DNA of 64,000 nucleotides from Oryzias latipes. Lineage: Eukaryota; Chordata; Actinopteri; Beloniformes; Adrianichthyidae. Location: assembly GCF_002234675.1 (NCBI RefSeq), contig NC_019867.2, positions 18,322,184 to 18,386,183 on the forward strand, written 5' to 3'. Made by a program: the position numbers and the translations under genes. Below are positions 25,701 through 57,165 of this stretch, one piece after another; positions within the stretch are counted from its first letter, which is position 1; every line of letters begins with the position of its first letter. A model generated the notes under the pieces. That model saw only the letters and a list, made by a program, of their open reading frames with translations, was not told where the DNA came from and made no database searches.

Positions 25701-28700
25701 GGCAGGTATGGAGGGGGTCATTATCTGCCCCACTCAGGCAGATCCCCCTGTGCTGTATGTCAACTGGACCAAGGATGGGAATGAATTGAATCTTGACAAT
25801 GTAAGTTTTCTTTTTTAATTAATGTTTAAATGCATCATAGAAGGTTTTTTAATTTTTCAAAGAACCTGGAATCATTGTCCCTTTCTCTCCTCATCCACCT
25901 GTCTAGTATCCAGGTTGGATGGTGAACTCGGAGGGCTCTGTTTTCATAGCAACAGCCAACGACAATGCTGTGGGCATGTACACCTGTACTCCCTATAACA
26001 GTTACGGCACCATGGGCCAGTCTGAGCCCACTAAAGTGATCCTGAAGGTAAAGCTGTTGTTTTTGACCCACAAGCATTTTTCTCATTGTAAATACTGTTG
26101 GATCCATAAAAAGGCTTTGCCTCTTCTCTAGGATCCTCCTTCATTTCGAGTGCCTCCTCTGCCCGAGTATCTTCAGGAAGTCGGCCGAGAGTTAGTTATC
26201 CCTTGTGAAGCTGCTGGAGACCCTGCTCCAAATGTAACTTGGAGCAAGGTATCAGAGATGACCTACTTTGGCAGCTGGATTTATGTCTGATTGACCTTTT
26301 ACATCAAGATTTCTGTCTCTCCTCACAGATTGGCCCCACTCCTCGTTCACCCTTCACAGTGTTGTCTAACGGCTCCCTCCTGCTTCGGCCGCTGAGTAAA
26401 GATCATCACGGGGGGTGGGAGTGCCTGGCCACTAATCGTGTAGCAACGGTCAGTGCGGGCACTGTTGTCATGGTGCTGGGTAAGTGGGTCAACATTAGGA
26501 ACGAAGGGACAGTTTATTCTAACAAAACAATAACTTGAAATAAATATGAAGGAGTATCATCAACCCAAAGTGTATTTCTGCTTCTCAGGCACCAGCCCTC
26601 ATGCTGTGTCTTCAGTGACCGTCACCACAGAGTTGAACCAGGCAAATGTGTCCTGGGTACCAGGCTTTGATGGTGGATACACCCAGAAGTTCACTGTGTG
26701 GTTAGTGTTGTGAAGAACCAACACTGCATCCACATTTCCCAGCTTATCATTGCCAATCATGACTTTGATTCCTTATTTTAGGGTCAAGCAGGCCTCTCGC
26801 GGGAAACACGAATGGGCGTCTTTACCAGTACCAACATCCAAAAGCTATTTGCTTGTGACTGGGCTGCTTGCTGGAACTGGATATCAGTTCAGTGTTTTAC
26901 CTCAAAATAAAGTCGGCTCAGGACCATTTAGTGAAATTGTAACTGTGCGAACTAAAGGTTAGTCAAAGTTAAGTTGTGTTTTCTTTTACTGTTCATTTGT
27001 AGTATCTTGAAAATAACTCGCAGTATTCTGGTCATTTTTAGCTGTGCCAACAGAGGTACCAGAACTTGTTACCACTTCCCAGTCCCTGGATCCTCCTACA
27101 GTTCTGTCTGCCAACCGGACTGGACAAGGAGTTCTCCTGTGGTGGCAGGCTCCAGAGGATCCGGTCTTTCCGGTCACTTCCTACGTGCTGCAGGCACGGA
27201 GGGACCAGGGCCAGTGGGTGATCCTCACCAGCAGCATCAGCGCCAACCAGAGTGTCTTACTAGTGCAGGGACTGCTGCGGGTAAAGATGGCCTCCGTGCA
27301 GCACTAAAAGCATCTTCCCATAAATGCTTTATACAAATAAGCCCATTTTTGTAGGACTCCACCTATGATCTGAGGCTGATGTCCCGCAGCAACAAAGTCC
27401 TCAGTCAACCCAGTGAGTCTGTGAGTGTATCTACAGCAGGTAAGGTTAAGACACTAATGCTAATTCACAAAAGGATTGCTGTTGTCAATAAAATGGTTGT
27501 GACTGCAGGAATGGAGATTTACCCCCTCCGTTCGAGTTTCTTGGAGGTCATCCCTCAATCGCTGCTGGCCGGTGTGTTAGGTGGGGTGTGCTTTCTCTTT
27601 TTTGCCATCATCCTTTCATTGGTGACGGCGTGCTACATGAGTCAGAGGAGGCAGCGCAGACGCAGAAAAAGAAGACAAGGTATAAAAACAGCTATAAAAT
27701 AGACTTTACACTCATAGGATATTAACGTTTTCACTCCTGGGACTCAAAAAGATGGGAAATTTGGAGTTATAGGTTCTAAAGTAAAGCTGCTGACTCATTG
27801 CTTTCCCTGTATTTCTGCAGATTTGTCAACTGCTTTTCAGAAAATCCAATCTCAAGAGTAAGTAGAGGTCACTTTTACGGTTGAAAACGTGTACATTATT
27901 GATGATCTGCCAGACATTGCAGATTTTGCATTTTAATTTTTGCCCTATGTCCTTCTCAGGGCACGCTCACCTCCTCCCAGCCCTGACAGCGTCCTCAAGT
28001 TGAAGCTGTGTCCACCTCTGCCCTTTTTTCCCACCTCCTCACAGTCTGATCGGTCCTCCTTTGACAGGGGCAGCCGCGGGGAATACCATGATCAGCGCAA
28101 ACAACTCCTATCCAACTCCTCCCCGCCACCGCACTACACACTCTTCGAAAGCCACTTGGGTTCTCAGGCGCCCTCACGAACTGCTCTTGAGTCCATCTCC
28201 AGAGGCCCAGACGGGCGCTTTATTGTTCAGCCGCTGCCTGAGAGCTCAAGTCCCTCCAATCTTAAAAATCTGAGTAAGACTGTACTACAGATTAATGGTA
28301 GCGCTAGTGGCTCCGGAAGCAACAGAACATCCTTTAGGGACTCTCCAAAGTCGAGCATTTTAAGCTCGGAGAGGGACGAGAGGAAAGGATCTCCACTCAC
28401 CGTGGATGTTCCGGAGCTGAGCAGGCCCCCTGCCTCACCTGGAAGAGTTCGAGCCATGGCCAGAAATTTCTCTCGTCACGGCTGCTTTTACTCTGACGAC
28501 GAGCAGGGCTCTGAGACGCATCTAGAAAGAGCCAGCTTTTACTCTGACAACAGCGAGAGGAAAAGCAGCGACTCTCACAGGAAGTACCGCATGCCTGGCT
28601 GCGCTGACGACCTGCTGCCACACTTTGGAAGACCAGCAAAGCTGCTTGACAGAGGAGACCGGGACAAAGCTCATCATGCAGGCTACCAGGCTATGGAAAG

Positions 28701-31700
28701 TCTGCTGACTGATAACAGCACCATGGTCTCGCAGCTGGACAGCGAGCTTGAGAAGGAAAGCATTAGCAGGTGTGTGCAGCTGGCAAAGGAGAGGGAAGAA
28801 ATCGAGAGGGACTTGAAGAAGTATGCTGCTGATCAAAGACGCCGCAGAGGGAAAGAGGAGCATCAGGCTCCCAAACTTGACAGCCCTCGAGGCCACGAGC
28901 CAAAGTCAGAGGAAGAGCCTGTGTGGAAACCGCAAGATGTTGCTATCAGACAGAAAAACCTGTCCTCAGGGGTCACAAGTCGAGTCTCGGACTATAGGAA
29001 GGCATGCTACTTTGGCAACACAAGCAGTCCCCTGGACCGAGTCCCAACCTCTCGCATTCAGTGGGACATTAGCCCAGTTACTTCTGTCCCCAGCCTCATC
29101 CAAAAGTCTCACCAGACAACATCAGAAACTACAGATGATTCTCCTGGTGAGGATTCCTCGCGTTCTCCTGTCACCCAAAACACATCCTTGCCTCTGCTGT
29201 CCCCTGACGCCACCTCTGAAAACTACACCCTCTGTTTGGAAAAAGCCGACTCATCATCGACTCCTCAGAGAAACCCACCTGAGCACACAATGTCCAACTC
29301 TGAGCACAGGGGGGCACCTGTTCCTGAATCCTCTAGACTCTGGGAGTTAGAACCCAGCAGTGCCTTGGTTACCAAAAATGACAGTTCAGCATCTGCATCC
29401 TGTGATAAGACTGAAAAAAGTGCTGAAGCAGACACAAGAGATCCCTCTGGTTATCCCACATTAAAATATGAGCATCATGAAGTAGCACTGAGGGCCAAAG
29501 AGGGAGAAACTTATTCTGAGCTGGAGCGAGAAGGTAACCGAGCGCGCTCCCGAAAGAGCGACAAATGCCTCTTTTCCGAAAGTCCCACTCCCATTTCAAC
29601 TTTAACTCTTGTAGAAGAGGTGGAGAGTGACCAGTCTCAGTTATCTGTGCCCAGAATATCAGATTCCTTCAAATCCAAGCCTGCAGTCCCATCTCCCAAA
29701 ATTTCCCCAGTCCAGACAAGTGCAATTCTAGAATACTTGAGTCTTCCTGGATTCATTGAAATGAGTGTGGATGAGCCTGTGGAGGAAGCTCAAGTCACAG
29801 ACTCTGCTGGACAAAGTTTGGAGCTTAAACGAAACGAATCTGTCGTGGCTAAGCCTGACGTAGTCCCGAAAAACTGGGAGGTACATGTTAATGAGAAGCC
29901 AGAAAGAGTGTCAAGCAAAGAGCAAACCCATTGTGTGAGTGCTGCAGAGTCCAGTCAAACTCAAAGCAGAAGTGCTTCCCATGTGGAGACCAGAGTGAAA
30001 TTCCCCGATGACACAAGAGCATCCTCATCTGGTTTGGAAAAAACAAGCAAGCAGCTCTATGCTGAAAAAACTAGAATTAGAGCAGCGAATGCTAGTGCTG
30101 ACCGGCCCGAATCCAGACTTGGATCCAGATCAGCTCACACCTTGTTGAGTGCAGCTAAAGGAATGGCAGACATTGTGTCCAAACACTCTGAAGGTTTTGC
30201 AGACAGCAGGGAGTTTTCATCAGATCAATCCCAAAGACAAGCTTCTCAAGGGAGCAGGACTAACAACATTGTTTCACGTATAACTCAAGTTCCTGTGCCG
30301 TTTTTAAAGAAGTCCTTCAGCCTGGGCCCCTGCAGGACTCTCTCTGGACATCCACGTCCTTTCCTGAAAAAATCCATCAGTTTAGGATCACAGAGGTGGG
30401 AACACTTTGAGACCCCGAGAACGTACATTTCAGAAAGGTGCTACTGGGATGAATTCCCAAATCCAGATGTCAGGGTGAAGTCCCACAGCTTAGGCCGCAC
30501 GCCATCGTCCCTCCCCATGCCAGGCCCCTCCTGGAGGGAATATATCCCCCTCAGGCGTCCCAGTATGGGGAGCTTGGAGAGGCCTCATCATGCTCACAGA
30601 TCTTTTGCTAGTCCTTCTTACCTCAGTCCTTCGATGTATCCACCCCATCCAACCTCAGTCTCTCCCATGCTGGAACCCTGTGATCCACGCCGGCAAGCCG
30701 CTGTTTTCCCAGAATCCTCTAGATGGTCTCCGTCTTACCCAGAAGCCTTCAGGCCGCCTCAGCATCCGTATGTCCACATGCCCGCCTCCATTCCTGTTCC
30801 CAGTTACCAGCATTGGCCTGGATCTAGAGGGGAAAGCTTGAGACCTTTTGACTCCAGGAGGGGCCCTCCAAGGTCCTACCTGCCAAGGGGCATCAGCTGG
30901 CCCTCCCCATACTACACCCCCTCCCCACACAGGGAGGGAGATAGCTACAGGCAGCCTGACAGGATGATGAGCCGGGGCGGGGACCCTGATATCAGGGATG
31001 GGGGGAGGGCCAGTTACGCTAGTCAAAGTAGTGGCAGAGGCAGTGCCGGTTTCTTCAGACAGTCCCTGTCCATGACCCCCACTCTGCTCAGCTCGCCAGA
31101 AACCACGGAGGAGAATGAGCGGCACAGAGCTGAGATGGAGCCGCCCGAGAGGAGAGTGAAAAGGTGAAACACCACCACACCTGGAACGATCCACACACTC
31201 GAAAAGCCCTCTGCAGATGGATTTGTTGATGTTGCCAAAAATAACACACACCCATGTTCTGTTTATGTGTCTGTTGTCTGACCACTGCTTTTGTGTATCT
31301 CATTAGAAGGAACACATCAGTAGATGAGAGTTATGAGTGGGATTCTGCTGATGCCTGTGTGGACTCAGAGGTCCTGGAGGCCACGCAGTTTGATCAGATG
31401 GGTCTGTGGCGCAGCAGGGGGGCGACAAGGTATGATCAAGCTGGTGGCCTCCAGGATCAGAGACAAAGAGGTGACTATTTGACATTCTCAGTGTTTTTTT
31501 TGCGTTAAGTTTCCTTTGGCATGAGTTGTGATTGTAATGCCTGATGTAACCGTGCTGCATGTGTCCTTAGTGCCACGTTTGTGTCAGCTTGTCCCACGAC
31601 ATTCCCATGCACACCTTTCATGTCCCTGATTCCACCCTTCCAGGCCCGTCTTCCCCAGTCAGCCCGCCAGTTTTCCACCCTCCTCGCTGCAAGTACAGCC

Positions 31701-34577: not shown

Positions 34578-37363
34578 TCACTTGGTGGACAGACGCATCA
34601 CATGTTTGACCATATTTCCAATCCCATCAAAGATGTAGTGATAGTGATAATCTGTCTCCCACATGAAGGACGGAGTGCTGACCACTTTGTTCTTCTCGTC
34701 CACATAGGCTTCGTAAAGGAGAGGGGTTAAGGGAAATATGTTTTATGAGATCCCCAGATGAGATGAATGCATGGTGTAAGTATGAGGTGACGGAAAGGAT
34801 ATGTATGGCTCGCGGACATTGTGGCGTGCGCCCATGGCTTTCACAGTCTGCACCATGTTGGTGTTGGGCCAGTTCCCCCAGCGGGTGTTTTCATCACGCT
34901 CGTAGCCCATGGTCACCTCAATGCTTGGCAGCGCGCGGCAGGCCAGCACAGAGGCCATGCTGGCCAGTCTGAAACAGGCGTGAAGACCAAAAACAACAAC
35001 AACAAAAATTCCTCTTATTTAGTCACAATAACAAACACAAACCAAACCAGAGCCTGACAAGAGAGATTCAGAGCCTGAAAACCTCTCTGCAAAAGCACTG
35101 ATTTCACATCTATTTTGTTCTTTAGCAAGCTGAAAGCAGACATTCTCAACTGCCTGTTATTACAAAGTATTATGTGAAACCATGGGACAATCATTTAGCA
35201 GTTATTCTATTTTAAAAATCTACTCCTCTTGTGATAGAAAGTCATTCTGCATGGAACCCTCTCTGATGAAATGCTAATTCCAGACAGCAGCCTGACACGA
35301 GACTTTTCTGAGTTCATAAGGAATCAAAGAATTCGAAGATAGAATGATGGATTCAGAAACTATATTTGTTATTGCAGCCATTTAGAGGGAAATGTTTACT
35401 TTTTATTTTACAGATAACGCGGAGGCATTACAGTAGTTTTTTACACAGGCCTGAAGAGTAATATTTGTCTTATTCTGCAAATGCAGCAACACTGAGCTGA
35501 TTATGTTTATTCTCCAAAAAATGTTTTACAAAATAAAATAAAAACCTCACTGCAGAGATGCTGAAAGAGCCAAAGGAAAAAACACAATTGGATGTATAAA
35601 CCCAGTTTTGTATTTATTAGTTACAGTCCATATATACTAAAAAAAACAAACAACTTTTGATGCTTCTGACTTTTTTGGGGGCTTTATTAAAAGTATGGGA
35701 GGATTATTTTCTTTAAATGTGGGGTAGAGGTCACAACGCCTTTTAACCTGATACGGATACTGCTTCTTTGTTTCATCCTCAACCTCGAGCTCAACTCTTT
35801 AACTCCGGTAATCCCACTTCTTCTGCCACCTGGAATCTTCTTTCTTTCACCTGACACTCTGTGTCCTCTAACCTGACCTTGTCACTGGCGTCCCTCATCG
35901 CCTTCTTCATCTATCCCAGAAAAGCCATTTTGCAACAGAGACCATTTGTGCTGCTACCTTTGTCCAGCCACGCCTTCTTTAGAGGATTTGCCTGGAAAAA
36001 CTACTTTCCTGTTGTCCAAACTGAGCTTAAGACTGTCTAAACTATTTTTACTGCACCTGTCCTTCCTGCTGTCTGCTGCCAGAAAGAAGACTTTAACCCC
36101 ACAACTTCAAGAAGCAGCGCATAGAAGAATCCCTGTTTCCCTAAACAAACCCTTTAGTTCAGCAAAATGCATAACAAAATTCACATATTGTGCAGAGAAG
36201 CGTTTTTTTTAAACAAGAACATTTTATCTGGCATCCAATTATTATGAAAAAATTAAAAATGTCTAATTTAAAACTATTTCTACATTCGCACATTTAAAAT
36301 CAAAGAAGGAAAGTAGCTTTTTTCATTGAAATTATTCAATAATGAACCATGCACCTCTTTGCTTGTCACTTCCAGCTGCTTCTCTGGTGTCTTCAGAAAC
36401 ACGTGGTGAAATTTGCCTCACGATTGACTGTCAATTGAGGTTGTTTTCAGGCATTTATTAAGTCAGCAGCACCTTACTCTTACATACCCGATAGGTTTCC
36501 GTGAACGGTGGAAGTCCTTCAGCACCCTTTCCACATCATTATGCAGCTTAAAGTCTTTGCCATCCTTCATAAAAGAGGATCTGAAGAGTCAAGATACATC
36601 CATTAGTCTTAGTTCTTTGCGTTCAGTCACACCAGCTTTTACCTTTGTGTGTTTTCAGTCTTTTTTTTTTTGTGGTTATGTTCCTCACAGATTCTTAGTG
36701 ATGCCGTAGCCTCCAGGGAAGATGACGGCATCAAAGCTGCTGGCATCCAGGGAAGACAGGTCCTGCATTTGCATCTTTCCCTGCCCGTGGCTGAAGCGCG
36801 CTGACTCAATCATCATGTTCCTGTTTATCAGTCAAACATGACCAAAAGTAGTTCCAGTCAAGTTGAATATCAAAACTATGACATTAGGGAAGAACAGAGC
36901 TCTTCTTAAGCGTGTCAAATGAGTGGCTCCAACCTGTTCTCCCCAGAAGCTGGTTGCTTTTTCATGTGGTCCATCACGTTCATCTGCTGTTGATTTGGGG
37001 CAAAAATCTGGAAGCGAGCGCCATTTCTGCTCAGGTGGTACATGGTGCTAAACACAAGTGTTTCCAGTTATGGTCATTCACTGGTGTACAAAACTTTCCT
37101 GATCTTCTCATACTCACTACACGCCCTCATGGACGTCAGTTCCATCCCACCATCCGCATCCAGAGAAAACCTAGAGTATAAGGAGAAATTCCAGCAATGT
37201 GTGCCATGATCTCATTACTGATCTCACAAAGTTCTGCTTAACCTACCACAGCGACATTGGTGTTTCCCCAGTTGCCATAGTCACCCTGGTGAACAAAGCA
37301 GGCAGGCTGGCGGAAAAAAACAGCCAGTGTTTGTTTAGAAAGCAAAGCCCTGGTTCCCAACAT
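34578..37363 (-). CDS. ES1/GATD3-like mitochondrial protein
   Basis: Seven exons (transcript order 37247-37363, 37118-37170, 36934-37047, 36689-36820, 36488-36580, 34803-34968, 34578-34712) join in phase to 269 residues, near the usual 268 of human GATD3. It is a DJ-1/PfpI-superfamily glutamine-amidotransferase-like protein (ElbB/ES1 family). The arginine- and alanine-rich N-terminus fits a mitochondrial presequence. Family landmarks are [59 protein letters not shown] and VVSTPSFM. In human the segment KPIGLCCIAPVLAAR holds a conserved cysteine pair; here it reads [15 protein letters not shown], so that pair is missing. Together with WETDYHYHY and other changes this suggests a divergent paralog rather than the main es1. 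The last intron has AT-AC ends of U12 type. The role is unknown; zebrafish ES1 enlarges cone mitochondria. Confidence 0.85.
34713..34802 (-). other. Predicted U12-type AT-AC intron (90 nt)
   Basis: On the minus strand the exon ends ...GAGCCATAC, and the intron starts ATATCCTTT, the exact 9-base U12 AT-AC donor consensus. Near the other end lies TTCCCTTAAC (34726-34735), close to the U12 branch site TTCCTTAAC, with the branch A about 14 nt from the acceptor TTTAC. Joining gives [17 protein letters not shown], in register with human CVKEVVEAHVDQKNKVV. No GT donor that keeps this register is available. Confidence 0.85.
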
Positions 37364-37942
37364 GGTTCTGCTTTGGTCTCACGGCTTTGAGAGGAGAAAT
37401 GAAACGTTGGAGTTTCTCACAGAGCTTTCCACGACCTCTGATAGTCCTGATATTGATCCGAGTGAAGCGGCCTGTATATATACCTCCATAGTGCAGCCAA
37501 AGTGACGTGGCCACGTAAGACCATTGTCTTATCACACCTGCACTTGTTTCCCCACTGAACTCCCTTACCTACGCCATTACCGCCTTCACCGCTCCCCTAA
37601 TCAACTTATTTAACCACAGAGGGACGCCTCCTGACAAATCCAATCAATATCTTTGTTTGCCTTTGATCTTCATGGGATTTGCTGGTGGAGAAATTGTGTT
37701 CAATGTTTAAAGCAGCTGAGTGACATTCCATATGCCCTTTAAAGTCCATTAGATTGTAAGGCTCTTACTCTCTAGTAATGCCATGTAGCGTCTAGACGGT
37801 GAACCCAGAAATATCCTTGGCAGATGGAAAAGACAGATCAAATTTAAAGGCTTCAGTTAGTTAGTGGAAGGCTGACATTTGGTTAAACTCCTGGACGCCT
37901 CAGTGGGATGTAAACCAGCAGGACGCAAAATATGACTTTGAC
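37364..37942. other. 5' flank of es1-like gene; no coding sequence
   Basis: This holds the likely promoter of the es1-like gene, but no TATA box or other clear motif stands out. It runs into the 3' flank of tmem127, so the two minus-strand genes are in tandem. Confidence 0.4.
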
Positions 37943-38971
37943 TTTATTAGAATCAGTTGATGTAAGCAATCAATATGTACATACTGCTGACAGTATAGCA
38001 AAGATTAATAGTGGAAAAATGTTGTAAAACCAACTCGAAACACATTAGCCACAATTCCAAGTCTGAACTAAGTGAGAAGATTTGGGCTGAAACGTAAAAA
38101 TTGCACACTAAAGAACTCATGCATGGGTACAACATGATGGATCCAACACACAGTCACAAAATACAAATAAGAACAATTCAAAGACAAAAAATAAAAAACA
38201 AAATAACCTTACATACTCATCCTGCAAACACTTTTCTTGGGCATCTCCCTTTCTTTACGCCCCCACCTTACAACAAAAACACCCACCCGGGCTGTTTTTT
38301 TTTCCTTAAACGCCCAAAATCTCACCCCCCCACCAAAAAGCACAGAATAAAAGACACAGAATATAACCATAGACAAATGTCTACAAAGCAAAAGAACAAT
38401 CAAAGACAAAAAGAAAAGTATGTGCAATAAATAGGGTCAATTTTCATAAAAATAAAAATTTAAAACAATCTCGTCAGTGTACAGATGAATTTGCATCTAT
38501 GGTGCATCTAAAAATAAATCATACATATGACAAGCACATCAAATGAAATCTAAATGCTGCTTAGCAAAGCTCCATCTTTCTCCAATTACATCAACAATCT
38601 GCTAAGAGCCAGTGTGGCTTTGGCTGCATCATCAAAATCTTAGGGAGTACTGGTTTGCACTCATTGCTTTTTTTTTTAATTTTACATGTAAAGACTAAAT
38701 TCTGCAAGTCATTTAAATGCAGATATTTAACCAACCCCATGTTGAAATGAAGAATTCCCTTCTAAATGTCTATCACCACCAAATAAAAGCGTTCATGCAC
38801 CTCAGCACTTTCATTGAATGAATCTGTGCACTAAAGGTACACAAACTGTTTTCGTTGCCAAGAATATTTGCAGAGATATTCATTTGATAAAGAATGTGGT
38901 TTGCGGGTCAAGCAAACAGCTGTGCAGAGAGGAAAGACAACCCAAGGCCATGTCGCCGCTTTTTGCTGGCA
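37943..38971 (-). other. tmem127: Likely tmem127 3' untranslated region
   Basis: About 1 kb without coding potential follows the tmem127 stop on the minus strand. A minus-strand AATAAA (TTTATT at 37943-37948 on plus) gives a plausible end. Small open frames here are not gene-like. Confidence 0.45.
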
Positions 38972-39855
<884 letters not shown>

Positions 39856-40825: not shown

Positions 40826-43347
40826 ATGAAGGAGGCTATTTCTCTGGTGCAGAAACTCAGCGCACACCCAGATTCTCGGTGCTGGTTCGTCAGTTGGAGC
40901 CCGAGCGGTGCGCTGCTGGCTTCGTGTGGTGGCGATAAGGCCATCCGGATATGGGGACAGGAAGGTCAGACTCAGACAGACAAAGAGCCTTCTATTCGAA
41001 TTTTGCTACGCCGATTTAAAATCAGTGGTTGGATGACCTTACCTTTTTTACAGTTCATGTTTTCCCTTTTCAAGGTGACTCTTGGGTTTGTAAAAACGTT
41101 CTGCAGGACGGACACCAGCGCACTGTGAGGAAAGTAGCCTGGTCTCCCTGTGGGAACTATCTGGCCTCCGCCAGCTTCGATGCGACGACATGCATCTGGA
41201 AAAAGAAGAACGACGACTTTGAGGTAAGGTTCGTTTAACCTCTGATCTAACACGTGTTCTGGCTCCACCTGGACTCTTTTCTTGTCTTCTAGAGCTTAAC
41301 TGTGTTGGAAGGTCATGAAAACGAGGTCAAATGCGTGGCGTGGGCCCCTTCAGGGACTTTGCTGGCCACTTGTAGCCGAGACAAGAGTGTCTGGGTTTGG
41401 GAAGGTTTGTGTCCTCACCAGCTCTTGCAGGACAATCCTTTGTCACAGAAAACATATAGAGCTGGGTTGTAAACCTTTGTTTTCCTTCTTCACAGTGGAC
41501 GAAGAAGATGAGTACGAGTGTGTTACAGTGGTGAACTCGCACACACAAGATGTAAAGCATGTTGTGTGGCATCCCACGCAAGAGGTAGGTCTGCACTCAG
41601 TCCTTCACCATCATGTAGTTGTTTTATTATTGTTGCTATTAATTGTTAAAGTGCATCTTTAGCCATATTTATGATCTACGTGCTGTTTTTAATAGAGCCA
41701 TGGTAACGACGTTTGTGGGATCAATAAAGTTGTATTTTATTCTATTTCCGCAGCTCTTGGCTTCTGCCAGCTACGACAACAACATCTGTATTTACAAGGA
41801 GGAGGATGATGACTGGGAGTGCAGGGCCACTCTGCAGGGACACACGTCCACCGTCTGGAGTTTGTGTTTCGACGTGACGGGACAGAGGCTGGCGTCTTGC
41901 AGCGATGACCGCACTGTGAAGATTTGGAAGGAGTATCCAAGTGAGAGTGGTGAGAAGATAGAGGGGTAGTTTATGACATAAATAAAAAAAAATAGGATAT
42001 TTTTTAATCACAGAATGTTTTGTTTGGTCTGCTTTATTAGGTGATTTGTCATGGAAGTGCGTTTGCACTCTGTCGGGTTATCATGGACGAACAGTGTACG
42101 ACATTGCCTGGTAAGACTAAATACTTACACTACAGCAGGGGTGTCAAACACACGGCCCGCGGGCCTTATCCGGCCCGCCAGGTGGTTTACTCCGGCCCAC
42201 ACATGAAGAGTAAAAATCAAAAGGATGATTAAAAAAGAAAGCAAGTTTCTAGTCCATTCCTGTGGCGAATTATGATTTTTTAAAGAAATAACAGAAATGT
42301 GCAATTCCGCCACTAGGGGGAGTAAAGGAAAAGAAAAACAGTTGAAACAGCAAATATCTGCATGTGCCAAAAGCGAAACATAACAGCTCTGCGTCTGGGT
42401 AGGATGCACCTTGGTTCCCTATGAGCCTTACCGCTGTTATCTTGCTATAAGGATGATCATTAGCGACACCCTAATGACCAAAATGCTGTCAAACGTGAAG
42501 TGGAGGGAAGAGCCTTCCAGGAAAATTGGACAGAGTTTTTTCTTTTTTTCACGAAGCTGAATGTAAAACCCAAATGCTTTGTATGTCATCAACATCGCAG
42601 TGCTCAAAGAATATGACATTCAGCACCACTAAGAGACTTATCATAAAGAAAAGTTTCTGGATTGCTTCAGTGTCAGATGTAAAATATTCAGACTGCATTA
42701 ATTTGAATAGACCAACTTTTCTTTAATTGAAATTAATTTTATTTGAGCTCCATTGGCCCCAAGTGATTAGGCTACTATGTTGATTGAGACATTTTTTCCA
42801 ACTGAATAAAAAACTAAAACAAAGCTGTTATTTTGCTTTTATGTTACTGGTCCGGCCCACTTGAGATCAGACGGGTTAAATGTGGCCCCCGAACCAAAAT
42901 GAGTTGGACACCCCTGCACTACAGTCTGGTGTCTGATTTTTTTTTTTTTACTTTAAAAATAGATTCTATTTACAGAGTTTTTAAAAAGTTGCCAAAACAG
43001 ATTTTCTTCTTTGCTTTTTTGGCTGTACCACCACTAAAACAGCGCTTGTCATCAGTCGGCTGAATCTTTGTCCCCTTTACTATTATGGCTCAAACAACTG
43101 TCTGTTGCGTAGGTGTCGACTGACCGGTGCCCTAGCAACTGCCTGTGGCGACGACGCCATACGAGTGTTTAGGGAGGATCTCGCGGCCCATGCAGATGAG
43201 CCGGTGTTCTCGCTGGCTGCTCAGGTGAAGAAGGCTCACTGTCAGGATGTGAACTGCGTCGCCTGGAACCCAAAGGAGGCCGGCCTCCTGGCCTCCTGCA
43301 GTGATGATGGAGACATTGCAATTTGGAGGTTTCAAGAAGAAGACTGA
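40826..43347 (+). CDS. ciao1: Cytosolic iron-sulfur assembly component 1 (CIAO1)
   Basis: Seven exons (40826-40964, 41075-41223, 41293-41404, 41496-41584, 41754-41949, 42041-42110, 43113-43347) join in phase to 329 residues. CIAO1 is a seven-bladed WD40 propeller that, with CIAO2B and MMS19, hands 4Fe-4S clusters to cytosolic and nuclear apoproteins. The repeats are easy to see: [13 protein letters not shown]...[24 protein letters not shown]...[20 protein letters not shown]...[29 protein letters not shown]...[22 protein letters not shown] and [27 protein letters not shown]. The exon 5-6 junction (ESG-DLSWKC) is shorter than in human. Intron 6 carries a hAT element (42136-42916). AATAAA lies at 43632-43637. 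Start MKEAISLVQ matches the family N-terminus. Confidence 0.97.
42136..42916. mobile_element. hAT element with transposase relic, in ciao1 intron 6
   Basis: The ends are CAGGGGTGTCAAACACA and GAGTTGGACACCCCTG, inverted with few mismatches. The flanks are a perfect 8-bp duplication CACTACAG (42128-42135 and 42917-42924), diagnostic of hAT insertion. Near 42550-42640 a frame reads [10 protein letters not shown] and, one frame over, [10 protein letters not shown] and ETYHK, a decayed BED-type zinc finger like the N-terminus of hAT transposases. At 781 bp it cannot encode a whole transposase, so it is a deletion derivative. Confidence 0.9.

Positions 43348-44914: not shown

Positions 44915-57165
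<12,251 letters not shown>

Follow-up and report, generated by a model that had tools for sequence, protein, structure and literature searches.

The locus described in this work has its closest counterparts in the U12-type AT-AC introns of vertebrates and in the proteins of the ES1/GATD3/ElbB family. The donor of a U12-type intron is recognised by U11 and U6atac and the branch site by U12. The branch A of these introns lies about 10–20 nt from the 3′ splice site, and the 3′ splice site is not preceded by a distinct polypyrimidine tract. AT-AC introns account for 22% of the U12-type introns of zebrafish, and two pufferfish each have a share of 12% (PMC7367187), 662 U12-type introns in 612 genes are cited for zebrafish (PMC9501576), and 91% of human minor introns are cited as conserved in zebrafish (PMC10639083). 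The last source sees hardly any evidence of newly gained minor introns, with the slime mould Physarum as the exception (PMC10639083). Another study listed one earlier accepted recent gain, proposed 55 candidates and argued that gain was more common than thought (PMC6865273).

On the protein side, GATD3A of human and mouse was described as a mitochondrial deglycase (PMC8935817), and the bacterial members of the family are represented by the ElbB structures 5lir, 1oy1 and 1vhq. The Discussion of the GATD3A paper reported that Cys176 of the human protein was conserved and that the Cys176 mutant had diminished activity (PMC8935817). The same paper placed the origin of GATD3A early in eukaryote evolution and concluded that one lateral transfer probably brought it in from bacteria that were not the progenitor of mitochondria (PMC8935817). 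Zebrafish ES1 was identified as a factor that enlarges cone mitochondria; its expression was cone-specific, and that of its paralogue was found in diverse tissues (PMC4772128).

Results

Structure of the Gene and Family Assignment

The window, which is the whole stretch of Oryzias latipes DNA that was analysed (64,000 nucleotides), contained an intact es1/ElbB-family gene on the minus strand (37363-34578). Seven coding exons, all on the minus strand, were joined into a product of 269 aa. Exon 1 with the start codon was located at 37247..37363, and it was followed by exon 2 (37118..37170), exon 3 (36934..37047), exon 4 (36689..36820) and exon 5 (36488..36580). Exon 6 (34803..34968) included the codon of Ser173, which occupied the position of the nucleophile Cys in ElbB, and its 3′ end encoded ...REPY. 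Exon 7 (34578..34712) ran from EAYVDEKNK... to the stop codon. Introns 1–5 were all of the GT-AG kind and had lengths of 76, 70, 113, 108 and 1519 nt, respectively. The last intron of the coding region, intron 6, had AT-AC ends, a length of 90 nt and phase 0 (34713..34802, minus strand). The length had been remarked on in the original prediction as being only 90 nt; the value was correct but not unusual, as four of the five other introns had 70, 76, 108 and 113 nt.

The protein matched the NCBIfam ElbB model NF008747 with 201.7 bits against a cutoff of 180. The best three of the four PDB matches were the ElbB-type structures 5lir, 1oy1 and 1vhq (E-values of 2e-34 to 3.8e-33), and the search of Pfam with this protein gave no match at 0.001. 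The gene is assigned to the ES1/GATD3/ElbB family by sequence because of the match with NF008747 and the ElbB-type PDB matches. The ElbB match began at residue 36 and left an N-terminal extension, which could be a mitochondrial targeting signal.

Signals of Intron 6

The 5′ splice site ATATCCTTT (34794..34802, minus strand) matched the U12 AT-AC donor consensus exactly. The branch-site motif TTCCCTTAAC was located at 34726..34735 on the minus strand, with its second A as the branch A lying 14 nt before the intron end, i.e., inside the range given above for U12-type introns. The 3′ splice site was the AC at 34713..34714 on the same strand. The last nine bases of the branch motif, TCCCTTAAC, differed by one mismatch from the consensus TTCCTTAAC. 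The coordinates of the intron (34802-34713, minus strand, 90 nt), the donor, the branch motif and the AC end were all exactly as originally predicted, and the predicted distance of about 14 nt from the branch site to the AC acceptor corresponded to 14 nt after the second A. The dinucleotide AG was absent within the intron, and the RNA fold of the intron was unremarkable (z 0.34). Pyrimidines made up nearly all of the 14 nt between the branch A and the intron end; hence, the lack of a polypyrimidine tract in U12-type introns was not evident here.

The exact sequence RTATCCTTT had a single copy across both strands of the 64-kb window, which was the donor of intron 6. With the AT...AC ends taken as given, an exact donor would arise here by chance with a probability of approximately 7e-5, and such a branch motif with one of approximately 1.7e-3. 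The number of chance pairs was estimated via 60 order-1 Markov simulations. A pair consisted of an exact donor and a branch motif with no more than one mismatch, at a spacing of 45-600 nt, and its intron ends had to agree as AT-AC or GT-AG. By this estimate, 0.17 pairs were expected per window on both strands, so the motif pair taken alone was only suggestive.

A looser scan, which allowed one mismatch each in the donor and the branch motif at 45-600 nt and took in introns of up to 600 nt, returned the minus-strand intron 6 together with three pairings on the plus strand, which fell in two places. One pairing (37811-38325) was located between the coding exons of es1 and TMEM127, on the other strand, and the remaining ones (54045-54443 or 54452) were opposite the Brr2 gene. 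All three were read as chance pairings, as about 2.2 pairs were expected per window under the looser scan.

Register Across the Junction and Alternative Joins

The register of the junction was compared with bacterial ElbB proteins from public genome records, of which the best 80 of at least 502 relatives were used. A scan of the public genome records with the single window protein as the query found no relative, and the at least 502 were obtained with an alignment query. Two patterns were used to retrieve this set, and one of them spanned the residues just past the join; the set was thereby biased to the motif but not to the spacing that precedes it. The stretch aligned to GARHNV...VDE had 16 residues in the window protein and in all of these 80 bacterial proteins. 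Moreover, no gap was present at the join in three of the four PDB matches, which were those with an alignment extending there; the fourth match, 3l3b, was aligned only up to residue 193, short of the join.

Joined proteins were scored with a profile made from the same 80 of the at least 502 relatives. A total of 427 joins with GT-AG, GC-AG, AT-AC, AT-AG and GT-AC ends, including those that broke the frame, were formed from donors between 34900 and 34712. The AT-AC join 34802/34713 ranked first with 217.8 bits, and the second rank was taken by another AT-AC pair, 34835/34713, with 214.2 bits. The best GC-AG join (34831/34709) reached 212.8 bits and the best GT-AG join (34817/34692) reached 208.2 bits; the margin over these two was modest because they dropped just 11 and 12 residues. 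When seven kinds of ends were considered, AT-AT and GT-AT included, 98 joins kept the frame, and 7 of these 98 were GT-AG. Each of these seven GT-AG joins deleted residues that were present in the relatives. The original claim that no GT donor preserved the register was thus valid for the residues but not for the frame. The motif pair sits on the codon junction demanded by the protein comparison, and this point decides in favour of the U12-type reading as far as sequence evidence goes.

Ser173 and Its Relation to GATD3A

Ser173 of the window protein was located at the nucleophile position of ElbB, which was occupied by Cys in all 80 bacterial relatives compared (the best 80 of at least 502). 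By the ElbB matches of the window protein, GATD3A of human and mouse (PMC8935817) and bacterial ElbB (5lir, 1oy1 and 1vhq) are placed in one family with it. Cys176 of human GATD3A presumably corresponds to the position of Ser173. A nucleophile cysteine, as the criterion for an active deglycase, was lacking in the window protein; its descent within the family stands, and activity is not claimed. Residue 176 of the window protein was also Ser, with Pro at this position in 79 of the 80 bacterial relatives in a count that misread one of the 80 loci.

Zebrafish ES1 shares the ES1/ElbB family with the window protein (PMC4772128). Because of Ser at the catalytic position and the zebrafish pair of a cone-specific ES1 and a broadly expressed paralogue, the window gene may encode an inactive-enzyme paralogue with a mitochondrial role other than deglycation, which is a lead from the sequence and not a result. 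We guess that the window gene is the cone-type es1 and not the broadly expressed paralogue.

Neighboring Genes

A domain search was carried out on 10 of the 134 open stretches in the window, and 4 of the 10 were matched in Pfam. These were TMEM127 (38975-39364, minus strand), a WD40 match (41643-41966, plus strand) and, both on the minus strand, two parts of SNRNP200 (Brr2): the winged-helix domain SNRNP200_wHTH (46689-47177) and a helicase match of the DEAD type (53240-53716). The gene with the WD40 match is presumably CIAO1, as suggested by synteny, and we take the presence of TMEM127, the WD40 gene and SNRNP200 beside es1 to resemble the human 2q11 neighbourhood. Brr2 acts in both spliceosomes. 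As in the original prediction, a Brr2 gene lies nearby, and its proximity to es1 gives no functional link. In another part of the window, a 1076-aa open stretch from stop to stop (27937-31164, plus strand) was apparently part of a larger gene, and a Pfam search at 0.001 with this stretch gave no match.

Discussion

Intron 6 is a genuine U12-type AT-AC intron, the last intron in the coding region of an es1/GATD3-family gene, with a probability of about 95% as judged from the sequence. The donor, the branch motif, the distance from the branch to the intron end, the terminal dinucleotides, the phase-0 register and the in-frame stop upon retention all agree with this reading, and the original prediction of such an intron in an es1/gatd3-like gene is supported by the same features. 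Removal by the minor spliceosome would follow the usual course. The donor ATATCCTTT would pair with U11 and then with U6atac, in keeping with the roles generally assigned to these snRNAs. The motif TTCCCTTAAC would pair with U12, its second A would act as the nucleophile at the branch, and the 3′ splice site would be the AC found 14 nt downstream of this A; AC at such a distance is usual for AT-AC introns. Splicing out the intron would join REPY to EAYVDEKN in phase 0.

The consequences of retention can also be predicted. When intron 6 was read through in silico, a stop codon was reached after 244 residues. If the intron were retained, 19 intron codons would be translated before the stop, which would give a 244-aa product that lacks the last 44 residues at the C terminus. 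Since intron 6 is the last in the coding region, an exon junction downstream of this stop is improbable, and nonsense-mediated decay might fail to remove the message.

A conventional U2-type intron, either GT-AG or GC-AG, would give a protein with a small deletion relative to its relatives; this reading was considered very improbable. Frame-keeping pairs of this kind do exist (7 of the 98 joins for GT-AG and several for GC-AG), and the scores of 212.8 bits for GC-AG 34831/34709 and 208.2 bits for GT-AG 34817/34692 are not far from that of the AT-AC join, although both are below 217.8 bits. Their use would alter a residue count that is common to all 80 of the bacterial relatives (the best 80 of at least 502) and would leave an exact U12 donor and a branch motif without explanation. 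Furthermore, the sequences GTGCAGACT, GTGAAAGCC, GTCCGCGAG and GTCACCTCA as GT donors, and GCGCACGCC as a GC donor, appear to fit the U2 consensus poorly.

The same U12 signals bear on the possibility that the AT-AC ends are real and that the major (U2) spliceosome performs the removal. U2-type introns with AT-AC ends are known and constitute 0.01% of human U2-type introns and 0.02% of those of zebrafish (Table 2 of PMC7367187), and the pyrimidine-rich stretch before the AC would suit them. However, the donor matches the U12 consensus exactly and the U12-like branch motif lies at the usual distance from the intron end; both argue against removal in this way, which we regard as having only a slight chance. 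Least credible of all is that the es1 gene is a broken copy, in which the 90-nt stretch would be a chance feature. The Ser at the nucleophile position, which is Cys in every one of the 80 bacterial relatives (the best 80 of at least 502), might point to such decay, but the 269-aa frame is intact across seven exons, the other five introns are GT-AG, and the protein exceeds the cutoff of the ElbB model.

Intron 6 is unexceptional among the U12-type AT-AC introns, which are a well-known class. It has the same AT-AC ends, the same ATATCCTTT donor and the same TTAAC branch motif near the 3′ end as the vertebrate introns of this type (PMC7367187), and it likewise is a single minor intron among major ones, with nothing different in kind. 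It is in phase 0, which is under-represented among U12-type introns according to PMC7367187. Given the published counts of U12-type introns and the AT-AC shares, a fish gene with one AT-AC intron is to be expected. The importance originally attached to the rarity of AT-AC introns was therefore overstated, considering their share of 22% among the zebrafish U12-type introns (PMC7367187) and the 662 U12-type introns cited (PMC9501576). Intron 6 is probably conserved in other vertebrates. Full-text literature on C21orf33, GATD3 or es1 together with a minor intron was searched (for C21orf33, U12 as well) and none was found in the article text covered. Similarly, PMC8935817 was the only paper found that linked es1, gatd3 and cysteine, and the main text of PMC4772128 contained neither "cysteine" nor "intron".

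The origin of the family places a limit on the age of the intron. If the gene was acquired from bacteria, as concluded in PMC8935817, every intron of the family, including the minor one, must postdate the transfer. Intron 6 is not thereby young, since the transfer itself was placed early. Were intron 6 present only in vertebrates, or only in the es1 paralogue of fish, a bacterial gene that once had no introns would have gained a minor intron at a time that could be dated, an outcome that we consider unlikely. In that case, the bacterial proteins, which are uninterrupted, would show precisely where the intron was inserted, namely between the residues aligned to Y225 and E226.

If intron 6 is spliced as read here, the es1-family gene relies on the minor spliceosome. 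If this is also true of the cone-expressed zebrafish gene, a shortage of ES1 could add to the eye defects of minor-spliceosome mutants. Moreover, the published bacterial origin of the family makes intron 6 a case for dating the gain of a minor intron.
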